Source: an uncultured Mycoplasmatota bacterium (GTDB lineage Bacteria; Bacillota_I; Bacilli_A; RF39; UBA660). From it: a stretch of 64,000 nt of DNA. A program made the translations under genes and the position numbers. Numbering within the stretch: position 1 is the first letter of the stretch; each line of letters opens with the position of its first letter. This document shows positions 48,161 through 52,402 of this stretch, in pieces. Location of the stretch: the NCBI GenBank assembly GCA_947571135.1, contig CANOWY010000004.1, positions 1-64,000 on the forward strand, read 5' to 3'. Under the pieces are notes generated by a model, which worked only from the letters and a program-made list of their open reading frames with translations, searched no databases and was not told the DNA's origin.

Positions 48161-48515
48161 TTTTTCTATTTATGCCAATAGTTGCACCAACAACACTCGC
48201 AAAAACCAGAACCATATAATAAATAATTCGCACAATTTTAAAACCAGTTTGGTAAATAACTAGATTAAAAAAAAGCAACAAAATAAGAAATAAAAAACCA
48301 ATCTTAAGACCTTCTAACAATCCTCTATTTTCTACTTTTTTTCCTCTTAAATAACCAAAAATAAAGAAAACTAAAATGATATAAGAAAACATAAATACAT
48401 TTACAACTTTAGAAGGCAATAACAAATAATAAAATAAACTTAAAACAATACTACCACCAACTAAAAATCCTAAAAACTTAAGAAGCAAGATACCATATTC
48501 TTTTGCACATTTCAT
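48153..48515 (-). CDS. TIGR04086 family membrane protein (YrzE-like)
   Basis: 120 residues with four hydrophobic segments, including LLKFLGFLVGGSIVLSLFYYLLL and a GFLFLILLLFFN stretch. Family TIGR04086 (YrzE) sits after queA-tgt-yajC in Bacillus, and this one lies after tgt, supporting the call. No function is known. It is on the minus strand, and its stop lies in the bidirectional terminator. Confidence 0.8.
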   Translation of the reverse strand: MKCAKEYGILLLKFLGFLVGGSIVLSLFYYLLLPSKVVNVFMFSYIILVFFIFGYLRGKKVENRGLLEGLKIGFLFLILLLFFNLVIYQTGFKIVRIIYYMVLVFASVVGATIGINRKKE

Positions 48516-48591
48516 AAAATCACCTATAAAACTATATGAGAGTGATTAAAAAAATATGAAAATACCCATAATAATAGTGGAGGATATATAT

Positions 48592-49236
48592 ATGGAACTT
48601 TTAACGATTGTGTTTAGAACAACATTTTTTTATTTTTTTATTGTACTTGCGTATCGTATTATGGGAAAAAGAGAAATAGGACAATTAGGGGTCATTGACT
48701 TAATCGTATCCATTTTGATTGCTGAGTTAGTAGCCATTAGCATTGAAAATATAAACGATTCTATTTTCTTTACCATTATTCCTATTATTTTATTAGTACT
48801 TTTAGAAGTAGGGCTTGCCTTTATTAGTATCAAATCAAGGACTTTTAGAACTCTTTTTGGAGGAAAACCCTCTTTAATTATTGCAAACGGTAACGTAAAC
48901 TACAAAGAAATGGTGAGACAAAGATATAGTATGGACGATTTATTATTAAGTTTACGACAAAACTCTATTAAAAGTATCGAGGAGATTGAATATGCCTTTT
49001 TAGAACCAAACGGAAAACTTTCTATATTCAAATATAATATGTTGCATACAAAAAGCAACTACCCAATGCCAATTATAGTCGATGGGGAACTGCAACAAAA
49101 ATCTTTAAGTTTCCTAAAAAAAGACAAACATTGGTTAGAAGAAGAATTATCTACTAAAGGATTAAAAATTGAAGATGTTTTCTACGCTTTCAAAAAGAAA
49201 AATAGAATTTATCTCATTAAGAAAAGTAATTTATAA
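48592..49236 (+). CDS. DUF421 membrane protein (YrbG/YetF-like)
   Basis: 214 residues from ATG 48592, seven bases after GGAGGA; an in-frame ATG 48556 precedes that site. Two to three N-terminal membrane segments (FFYFFIVLAYRIMGKREIGQLGVIDLIVSILIAEL) are followed by a cytoplasmic DUF421 domain with KPSLIIANGNVNYKEM, RQNSIKSIEEIEYAFLEPNGKLSIF. In Bacillus yrbG follows yrzE before spoVB. YetF-type proteins affect spore germination or envelope stability, but the exact role of this one is unknown. Confidence 0.85.
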   Translation: MELLTIVFRTTFFYFFIVLAYRIMGKREIGQLGVIDLIVSILIAELVAISIENINDSIFFTIIPIILLVLLEVGLAFISIKSRTFRTLFGGKPSLIIANGNVNYKEMVRQRYSMDDLLLSLRQNSIKSIEEIEYAFLEPNGKLSIFKYNMLHTKSNYPMPIIVDGELQQKSLSFLKKDKHWLEEELSTKGLKIEDVFYAFKKKNRIYLIKKSNL

Positions 49237-49248
49237 TAGAATGAATAA

Positions 49249-49275
49249 GGCAATCGCATAAAAATTTAACGTAAA
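49249..49275 (+). repeat. Left terminal inverted repeat
   Basis: 27 bases starting GGCAATCGCAT; pairs with 50469-50495 (24/27). Confidence 0.75.
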
Positions 49276-49509
49276 TTAGAGATTAGTATAAAAAATGACA
49301 TTAAATATAAGATTTTCAATATTTTTGAAATTACTTCTATAACATGTCATTTTTTGTTTTAAAGTAAGTTTGTTAAACATAGCAGTATCAAGTCTTGCAA
49401 AATTAAAAACAATTTTTCTGATAGTAGATAAATTTTTTATATAATTATTATTTTTCGTTACTCTACGTTTCATAGATTGTGAAAATTGCTGTAAATATAT
49501 ATAATCTTT
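49276..49509 (-). pseudogene. ISAs1-like transposase C-terminal remnant
   Basis: Frame open from 49509 back to 49276, ending next to the left inverted repeat. It reads FSQSMKRRVTKNNNYIKN, LSTIRKIVFNFARLD and KLTLKQKMTCYR. These align by eye with the end of ISAs1-family transposases (F-x-ED-K.., N..IRK..LN, KLSLK.K); the catalytic Glu-Asp appears as Gln-Ser. The remainder of the transposase is missing, so the unit cannot move by itself. The family assignment is from memory. Confidence 0.55.
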
Positions 49510-49529
49510 TTAGAAAAGAGGAAAATTTT

Positions 49530-50441
49530 ATGAATTTAGAAAAGATAGCAGATTTAATCAAATCTAAACGGAAAGAGAAGAATCTAACACAAGCGGAATT
49601 AGCAGAAAAACTTCATGTTACAGAGAAAGCAATTTCTAGGTGGGAAACAGGAAGAGGGACTCCTGATATTTCTTTGTTACTTCCTTTATCTAATATACTT
49701 GGAGTTTCTATATCAGAGATATTGTCTGGAAAAGAAGATGAAAAATCTAATGAAATCATAAAAGAGATTATAGAATATATTGATATTAGTAAAAAAAGAA
49801 AAAATACGAAATATTTAATGCTTTCTATTATTATTTATCTAATAACATTATTTTTTTATTTGTCCTATTTAAAAGAGATTTATAGTAGTGTATATACTTA
49901 TGCGAATTATACAGGTGCTTTAGTTATTAACACTATTTTTTCTATCTCTATTTTAATAGCTAATTATCTGATAACAAACTATTACTATGATAAAATTGAG
50001 GACAAAGAAAAAATGAAAAAAATTTCTTATATTCTTTTATTAGTTTTATATACAATTATGGTTTTTAATTTAACTATTTTTGGAAGAATGAATGGAGAAA
50101 TTCGCTATAATTTAATTCCGTTTAAAACGATAGCAGAATATATTTTACATTTTAATCAATTAAATACCAATATAGTTATAATAAATATTTTTGGGAATAT
50201 AGGAATATTCATGCCTATTCAATACTTTATCTTAAAAATTTTTAATTTGAAGAAATTTAATCATATTTTCTTAATTGATATAATTTTAATATTTATGGTA
50301 GAATTTTTGCAACTCATTACGCACACAGGTATTTTTGATGTGGATGATATGCTTCTAAATTTACTGGGAATGGTTTTAATTTATATGTTTTATTGTATAT
50401 TTAATAAAAAAGATAAGAATTATAAGAATACAATAGTTTAG
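49530..50441 (+). CDS. XRE-family HTH fused to a VanZ-like membrane domain
   Basis: 303 residues from ATG 49530, behind aaagagg. An N-terminal helix-turn-helix (IADLIKSKRKEKNLTQAELAEKLHVTEKAISRWE) is followed by a helical linker and a VanZ-like domain: five to six membrane segments with NLIPFKTIAEYI, NIFGNIGIFMPI, VEFLQLITHTGIFDVDD and LLNLLGM. VanZ proteins are associated with low-level teicoplanin resistance; HTH-VanZ fusions are common in Firmicutes, and the regulator half may sense through the membrane domain. It is the passenger of the IS-like unit. Confidence 0.85.
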   Translation: MNLEKIADLIKSKRKEKNLTQAELAEKLHVTEKAISRWETGRGTPDISLLLPLSNILGVSISEILSGKEDEKSNEIIKEIIEYIDISKKRKNTKYLMLSIIIYLITLFFYLSYLKEIYSSVYTYANYTGALVINTIFSISILIANYLITNYYYDKIEDKEKMKKISYILLLVLYTIMVFNLTIFGRMNGEIRYNLIPFKTIAEYILHFNQLNTNIVIINIFGNIGIFMPIQYFILKIFNLKKFNHIFLIDIILIFMVEFLQLITHTGIFDVDDMLLNLLGMVLIYMFYCIFNKKDKNYKNTIV

Positions 50442-50468
50442 TTTGATAAATCTATAAGTATATCATTT

Positions 50469-50495
50469 TTTACATTTATTTTTTATGCGATTGCC
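50469..50495 (-). repeat. Right terminal inverted repeat
   Basis: Complement starts GGCAATCGCATAAAAAATA; matches the left repeat at 49249-49275. Confidence 0.75.
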
Positions 50496-50607
50496 ATATA
50501 GAATGAAAACATTGTTTGCAAGAACCTATTAAGAGAATAGCGATGCCAACTGTATGTTATTTTAAAGTATTGGAAGTATTTCTTTAGTTCACTTTGGTAA
50601 TAATCCA

Positions 50608-50616
50608 TGGTATAAT
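50608..50616 (+). promoter_or_regulatory. Extended -10 promoter
   Basis: TG-G-TATAAT, 24 bases before the start at 50640. Confidence 0.55.
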
Positions 50617-50639
50617 AATGGAAAATAAAGGGTGATACT

Positions 50640-51107
50640 ATGAAAATTGTAAAAAGCATTCGAAAAACAAAAACAGGGATGAAATTTGCAATACTAGGGA
50701 GTATTTTTACTATTCTTTTTTTGCTTTTGTTAACACTAAATCATCTAAATATTTTACGAACTCGTAATGCATTTCAGAATTTTAATAGGGAAGAACAGTA
50801 TGAAATTGTCGTTGCTACAACAAGAACCAAAACAAAGAAAAAATTATTTGATTATGAGAATCTTCATTTTTACAGTTATGGAATTCGAAATATCAGTATA
50901 GCCTATAACGGAAATAAAATGTCTTTAGAGGATATTTTAGAAGATCGAGATTTTGCACTAGACGACTTCTTAAACAATTTTTCTCTTGTTATGGAAACAG
51001 AAGACAAAACAATTCAAAAATATGCCAAAGGAAATCTTTTCATTACTGTAGAAAAAATGTATCCAAATGAAACAGATATTGTTTTTAGCGAAAAAAATAA
51101 TGGTTAG
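50640..51107 (+). CDS. Hypothetical membrane-anchored protein, 155 aa
   Basis: Behind aagggtg. A single membrane segment (ILGSIFTILFLLLLTLN, residues about 18-35) precedes a polar extracytoplasmic domain with VVATTRTKTKKKLF and an acidic middle (DILEDRDFALDDF). Its stop overlaps the end of the convergent spoVB by four bases. No family recognised. Confidence 0.62.
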   Translation: MKIVKSIRKTKTGMKFAILGSIFTILFLLLLTLNHLNILRTRNAFQNFNREEQYEIVVATTRTKTKKKLFDYENLHFYSYGIRNISIAYNGNKMSLEDILEDRDFALDDFLNNFSLVMETEDKTIQKYAKGNLFITVEKMYPNETDIVFSEKNNG

Positions 51108-52402
51108 GATAAGTTTGCCGTTACTTTTTTAATTTTATAGAGATTTGTTCCTACAACAAAAATGATATTGACAATCTCCGAAATAATGAGTCCATAAATC
51201 CCAATTCTGAAAAAAGAAAAAATTGCCAGAATAACATTTTTCAAAAGAACACCCATAAAAGTAATTTTCATGGTAAATTTAGCAAGCCCAAGTCCTTGTA
51301 AAGTACTAATAAGAGGACTTTCTAAATAGAAGAGAACGAAAAAAGGTGCCAGAACCGTAATATAATCAATTCCACTTGTTGTATGATACAAAATCCAAAG
51401 AAGAGGCTCTTTAAAAATCAAAATGAAGATACTAAATACAAATCCTAGAAAAAAGGAAATTCGCATTGCTTGATGAAAACGCCTTTTTAACATCACAATA
51501 TTTCGCTTTTGATAGAATTTACTAATTTCGGGCATTAATGCATTACTAATGGCTGCAACAAAAAAGGAAGGCATGGTAAGAAGGGCAATCGAATAAGCAT
51601 TATAAGCCCCGTATTCCATCAAGATAAAATCACTAGAATACCCTACAAACAATAAAATGTTGGTAAGAATAATCGGCTCAAAAAAGAAACCAATATTTCC
51701 AATAAATCTAGAGGAAACAGTAGGAAGACTTACATTTAGTACTTCTTTAATTGTATAAATAGTAGGCTTCAAATCTTTTTTTGTAATAATCGCCTTTTTG
51801 GGAATAAAAAATAAAAATACAATCACAGAAAAAATCTCTGAAATAATATTAAAAAGAATTAAAGCAACAACAGCAGCGAGGATACTTATTTTAACAAAAT
51901 AAGGAAGAAAAAAAACGATTAAAATAAGTCTTACTACTTGTTCTAAAGAATTAGATAGAGCATACGGTAGCATTTGCTGCTTTCCAAAAAAATATCCTTT
52001 GACAATACTAGATAAACTCACAAAAGGAAGAGTAACGGTACAAGCAAGAAGAAGGAGATAAGTACTTTCGTTTTTAAGCAAGTGAAAAGCAATAAATTTA
52101 CTAGAGAAAAACATGGTAGCCATTAAAAGAATATTGACAACGATAATAATAAGAACAGAAGAGCAAATGATTTTAATACTTCTTGTTTTTTCTTCTGCGA
52201 CTAACTTTGAAATCGCAAGGGGCATAGCAAGTGTTGCAATTGTAATTAAAAGAGAATATGTAGGCATAACAAGAGAATGTAAACCAACGCCCTCTTCTAA
52301 AATAATACGAGTATAAATAATTTTAATGATAAAACCTAAAATACGTGTAACAAATCCACCTAAAATCAAAATTAAAGTGGAAGATAAAAATTTATTTTTC
52401 AT
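51104..52402 (-). CDS. spoVB: SpoVB-like stage V sporulation protein (MOP flippase)
   Basis: 432 residues from ATG 52402, behind ggggactact on the minus strand. Twelve or more hydrophobic segments of the polysaccharide-transporter (MOP/MurJ) superfamily, with LGGFVTRILGFIIKIIYTRIILEEGVGLH at the start typical of SpoVB. It likely moves lipid-linked precursors needed for spore cortex. The longer ORF to 52687 covers the divergent comN gene and is spurious. Neighbour order matches Bacillus (yrbG-spoVB-comN). Confidence 0.88.
   Translation of the reverse strand: MKNKFLSSTLILILGGFVTRILGFIIKIIYTRIILEEGVGLHSLVMPTYSLLITIATLAMPLAISKLVAEEKTRSIKIICSSVLIIIVVNILLMATMFFSSKFIAFHLLKNESTYLLLLACTVTLPFVSLSSIVKGYFFGKQQMLPYALSNSLEQVVRLILIVFFLPYFVKISILAAVVALILFNIISEIFSVIVFLFFIPKKAIITKKDLKPTIYTIKEVLNVSLPTVSSRFIGNIGFFFEPIILTNILLFVGYSSDFILMEYGAYNAYSIALLTMPSFFVAAISNALMPEISKFYQKRNIVMLKRRFHQAMRISFFLGFVFSIFILIFKEPLLWILYHTTSGIDYITVLAPFFVLFYLESPLISTLQGLGLAKFTMKITFMGVLLKNVILAIFSFFRIGIYGLIISEIVNIIFVVGTNLYKIKKVTANLS

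Follow-up and report, generated by a model that had tools for sequence, protein, structure and literature searches.

Mobile insertion cassettes (MICs) are bracketed by inverted repeats, lack a transposase gene and are usually flanked by a target duplication (PMC3913671, PMC1196294). In MIC231 of Bacillus cereus, derived from IS231, an endopeptidase gene replaces the transposase, and the IS231A transposase mobilizes the cassette in trans, as summarized from Chen (1999) and De Palmenaer (2004) in two later papers (PMC3913671, PMC1196294). Further examples are the qnrS2 and qnrD cassettes (PMC5444012, PMC3913671). Transporter ISs (tIS) likewise carry passengers unrelated to transposition and, as described for the class, consist of an insertion sequence (IS) copy plus additional passenger genes (PMC3129680, PMC9330008). 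Among open-licence papers we found neither an ISAs1-derived MIC nor an XRE-VanZ passenger.

Here we describe a 1253-bp unit (49246-50498) in a window of 64,000 nt, the whole analyzed stretch of contig CANOWY010000004.1 from an uncultured Mycoplasmatota bacterium. We consider it probable (roughly 0.7) that the unit is a MIC derived from an ISAs1-family IS, whose interior was swapped for an XRE-VanZ gene and which was then moved in trans. It has bracketing IS inverted repeats, a coding passenger but no transposase gene inside, and a target-site duplication; judged by this sequence organization, it is structurally a well-preserved MIC. As in MIC231, IS terminal repeats and a target duplication surround a passenger in the place of the transposase. 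It differs in that the ends belong to the ISAs1 family and not to IS231/IS4, and the passenger is an XRE-VanZ gene instead of a D-stereospecific endopeptidase or a fosfomycin-resistance gene. The unit also retains a piece of the transposase, and whereas MIC231 is mobilized in trans, such movement is predicted for the present unit. Unlike a tIS, it has lost the transposase itself. Features of the locus are given in Table 1.

Table 1. Features of the unit and its borders in the window.
Feature	Position	Strand	Remarks
Left target-site duplication copy, 9 bp	49237..49245	.	TAGAATGAA; immediately 3' of the YetF/DUF421 stop codon
Left terminal inverted repeat	49246..49275	+	TAAGGCAATCGCATAAAAATTTAACGTAAA; end beside the transposase-gene 3' end
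Transposase C-terminus remnant	49276..49473	-	Open frame, C-terminal ~50 residues; homologous part ~49294-49449
Hairpin at the 3' end of the remnant	49283..49362	-	Folding z-score -3.95
Left IS/cargo junction, ACTCTA	49460..49465	.	6-bp match in the intact IS (G015), upstream of the G016 homologue, and in the window
Promoter-like TTGTGA-17-TATAAT of the passenger	49477..49505	+	Consensus match only; such sites not enriched over shuffles
Passenger, 303-aa XRE (HTH_3)-transmembrane-VanZ protein	49530..50441	+	Intact frame; RBS-like purine-rich AGAGG upstream
Right cargo/IS junction zone	50403..50419	.	IS homology resumes at 50419
Right terminal inverted repeat	50469..50498	-	TATGGCAATCGCATAAAAAATAAATGTAAA on the minus strand; end beside the lost transposase start
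Right target-site duplication copy, 9 bp	50499..50507	.	TAGAATGAA

The unit is bounded by two distinct ISAs1-family ends, TAAGGCAATCGCATAAAAA and TATGGCAATCGCATAAAAA. Recomputation of the inverted repeats (49249-49275 vs. the reverse complement of 50469-50495) gave 24 identities over 27 nt, exactly as the first-pass annotation had read them. The best 27-mer scores in 12 dinucleotide-based resamples of the DNA were 20-23, and the 24/27 score alone is modestly above chance in AT-rich DNA and non-decisive. We accepted the repeats as real because a 16-nt identical core with TAA/TAT prefixes recurs across the genomes of the family. The perfect 10-bp direct repeat reported earlier (ATAGAATGAA) is indeed present on both sides; the true duplication is 9 bp (TAGAATGAA) and the tenth base matches by chance. 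This length was set because nearly all copies have TAAGGC.../...GCCATA ends and because three other copies (L026, L143, L145) show exact 9-bp duplications at these boundaries. In other copies of these ends, the duplication match is extended by one or two chance bases. Target duplications of the ISAs1 family are generally 8-10 bp long, a range into which the 9 bp found here fit.

When 386 genomes of the family were scanned with the pattern TWWGGCAATCGCWTAAAAA, such ends turned up in 39. The family comprises at least 150 genera with genomes mostly of ~1-1.5 Mb. Some genomes have many copies of the ends, and the reversed pattern, used as a control, gave one match in one genome. The ends enclose intact ISs (~1.25 kb) and miniature elements (160-350 bp). 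Two types of end were distinguished, TAAGGC... (followed by TTNACGTAAA in most GCATAAAAA-type copies) and TATGGC..., and the unit has one of each. Its right end is 94-96% identical to ends in G001 and G020 over ~50 bp, up to the contig breaks there; such breaks at IS copies are usual for multi-copy ISs. Within 1.5 kb, 16 end pairs were resolved in the relatives and the window, with many further pairs hidden by contig breaks: an intact or decayed transposase lies within 5, another 10 are miniature elements, and one, the unit itself, holds a passenger. Such ends, each pair with its own duplication, bound miniature elements in G011 (199 bp, three times), G045 (164 bp), and G174, G220, and G337 (178-193 bp). 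Those of 199 and 164 bp share with the unit the ends, 9-bp duplications and absence of a transposase gene, but are gene-free and much shorter. In G045 (L141, G045:C31, 520-745), a second left end directly follows the 164-bp element with the direct repeat AGTAGTTTTT shared by the two, which looks like insertion of a further copy into one and the same target. The search for other copies of the 27-base end, proposed earlier as a check, was thus positive in sister species and the family, while in the unit's own genome no further copy was found at up to 2 mismatches.

Intact transposases accompany the same ends in the sister species and family. In G015 (L024), the ends enclose a 376-aa ISAs1-family transposase, and the same gene lies beside one end in G011 (L025), where the contig stops at the other. 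Both proteins match NF033564 (320 and 326 bits, E=2e-95 and 2e-97) and contain the DDE_Tnp_1_assoc and DDE_Tnp_1 domains in profile searches; one copy bearing stop codons was left out of the family profile searches on transposases. These NF033564-type transposases, found in elements with the same ends, place the ends and the remnant of the unit in the ISAs1 family. More diverged intact ISs with such ends occur in G075, G232, G161, and G401. The minus-strand remnant, already noticed as reading like the C-terminus of an ISAs1-type transposase, was borne out by direct comparison: 35 of 51 positions (69%, one gap) are identical to residues 324-373 of an intact sister-species enzyme, and its position and strand are those expected from intact copies. 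On its own, the 65-aa remnant was recognized by no Pfam or NCBIfam model. Aligned as DNA to the G015 IS, the unit matches at 76% over its left 177 bp and at 77% over its right 91 bp. The other ~320 transposase codons are missing from the unit, which is non-autonomous because its transposase is cut down to the last ~50 of 376 residues, whereas the parent-like ISs of the sister species keep the gene intact. A lone 68-bp stretch in G005 (L036, ~1596-1664) is 93% identical to the hairpin of the remnant; it was rejected as an IS copy, as no IS ends are present there. No Rfam match was obtained within 48500-51200.

The only ISAs1 transposase of the unit's own assembly (L003, G000:C20:1-1306) is intact, 416 aa long, located at the very start of a contig and 32% identical to that of G015, and no window-type ends accompany it within the available bases. 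A transposase of the unit's IS lineage was not found in this assembly. IS copies tend to coincide with contig breaks. Since the assembly is 92.6% complete and split into 62 contigs, the absence of a cognate transposase or of further copies is weak evidence.

The complete HTH-VanZ gene described at first pass in place of the rest of the transposase was recovered with both domains (HTH_3, E=1e-16; VanZ, E=2e-16), and what had been called its own ribosome-binding site is an RBS-like purine-rich motif. The protein scores 61.1 bits for PF04892 (gathering cut-off 30.1), which makes it a member of the VanZ superfamily, and the motifs YNLIPF, NIFGN..FMP, and FDVDD are intact, with the blocks conserved among relatives present. 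VanZ proteins lower lipoglycopeptide binding to cells (PMC7146870), and we infer a role of the passenger in the cell envelope. Enterococcal VanZ (PMC7146870) shares the VanZ domain (PF04892), but the passenger has an XRE helix-turn-helix fused to it. Against the glycopeptide-resistance model VanZ-Pt it reaches 29.7 bits, with a cut-off of 260; because this is far below the resistance model, a resistance function is not implied.

Relatives of the passenger lie outside such elements. In G016 (L031, G016:C28, 915-1824), a frameshift-broken homologue aligns with 49460-50402 at 73% identity and lacks IS ends of this kind in its surroundings, and in a decayed copy in G017 (L037, G017:C4) similarity starts at almost the same point. 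The two nearest relatives in the genus are a frameshifted gene and a decayed fragment; of the three copies, only the one borne by the IS is intact. Comparison with the broken G016 copy gave dN 0.29 and dS 0.82, which, with dS high and one partner decayed, suggests past purifying selection with little weight. Full-length XRE-VanZ homologues in 12 other family genomes had no such ends and no other notable inverted repeats; XRE-VanZ is therefore no regular passenger of ISs. Among the species sampled, a second copy with cargo did not turn up. Searches with the passenger returned only a distant Lachnospiraceae match (residues 6-109) in the genome contig collection and none in viral contigs; no plasmid match covered 80% of the query, and the plasmid matches listed involved only the helix-turn-helix at no more than 22% coverage.

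The G016 homologue places both borders of the replaced interior, the left one within the ACTCTA match and the right one slightly inside the IS. At the right border, IS homology resumes with ATTATAAGAATACA, located in the intact IS upstream of the transposase start, and because of this the last 7 codons of the passenger (NYKNTIV) and its stop are IS-derived. Longer C-termini were seen in the relatives L105-L107, but not in L109-L114. The captured piece probably had its own promoter, as the TTGTGA-17-TATAAT match sits just inside the left junction (49477).

The gene upstream of the unit, previously labeled yrbG, is a YetF/DUF421 gene by domain search. The empty site looked for in relatives does exist: in the sister species G002, YetF and the homologue of the 50640 gene are adjacent with a 125-bp gap, and the joined flanks of the window align across it. 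The pair is also side by side in G001, G003, G017, and G018. Of the 22 genomes of the genus, 21 yielded a close YetF homologue (at least 76% identical) and 11 a homologue of the 50640 gene. Since the target duplication begins directly after the YetF stop codon, no gene was broken by the insertion. The small protein gene at 50640-51107 diverges very fast: across the genus its identity falls from 64% to 26%, as compared to 76-95% for YetF.

Taken with the ends and the remnant match, the empty site makes a non-autonomous transposable unit with a passenger gene, as first proposed, the best reading. The events probably ran as follows. An ISAs1 copy would have exchanged its interior for the XRE-VanZ gene via illegitimate repair or template switching, with short matches at both sides: on the left ACTCTA, on the right the stretch preceding the transposase start. 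A transposase provided in trans would then have mobilized the composite, which keeps the ends recognized by such an enzyme, into its position directly behind the YetF gene. Transposase action in trans is implied because miniature elements without a transposase, with the same ends and duplications, have moved; the unit, being bounded by these same ends, would be expected to serve as a substrate as well. The cargo would already have been inside the unit at insertion.

The same structure would result if an ordinary ISAs1 copy had inserted after YetF first and the XRE-VanZ gene had replaced its interior in situ, the composite being a relic that never moved. A gain of this kind by a resident IS copy would look identical to the insertion of a cassette, and interior replacement needs equally many steps in either order. 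The single copy, the lack of a cognate transposase in the assembly and of a second cargo-bearing copy all count against a mobile cassette; the first two are what such a relic would leave, and the restriction of the passenger to one of 16 resolved pairs agrees with it. On the other hand, the unit has kept its two ends, its target duplication and the frame of its passenger intact, as would suit a fairly recent origin, but this does not decide the matter. We regard replacement in place as unlikely.

An artifact of assembly, with the IS ends and a separate XRE-VanZ contig joined by the assembler, might be suspected in a fragmented assembly, as IS ends are typical misjoin points and many contigs of relatives break there. 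Yet the two copies of the target duplication agree, a conserved gene pair forms the outer flanks, the ends are absent elsewhere in the same genome, and the junctions lie inside the element, away from its repeated ends, so that a misassembly is very improbable. An ordinary chromosomal XRE-VanZ gene with inverted repeats around it by chance would be compatible with the 24/27 score, which is little higher than the best obtained from shuffled DNA; but in dozens of genomes these ends, accompanied by target duplications, border transposases and miniature elements, and the position and strand of the transposase remnant are as predicted. Because the ends recur around transposases, this explanation is refuted, and we give it next to no credence.

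The passenger is probably expressed, giving a VanZ-superfamily membrane protein that regulates itself through its XRE domain and acts on the cell envelope. It is doubtful, though conceivable, that among related bacteria with small genomes a mobile cassette of the ISAs1 family is actively spreading an XRE-VanZ envelope gene under its own regulation, captured by a microhomology swap and with its last codons encoded by the IS end. The unit leaves knowledge of how such cassettes work unchanged. It offers a clean snapshot of an insertion sequence turning into a gene carrier, in which the parent-like IS, an unlinked relative of the cargo, the empty site and both junctions can be read together. The MIC, described for IS231 and some resistance plasmids, is thereby extended to the ISAs1 family, with a passenger whose reading frame ends inside IS DNA.
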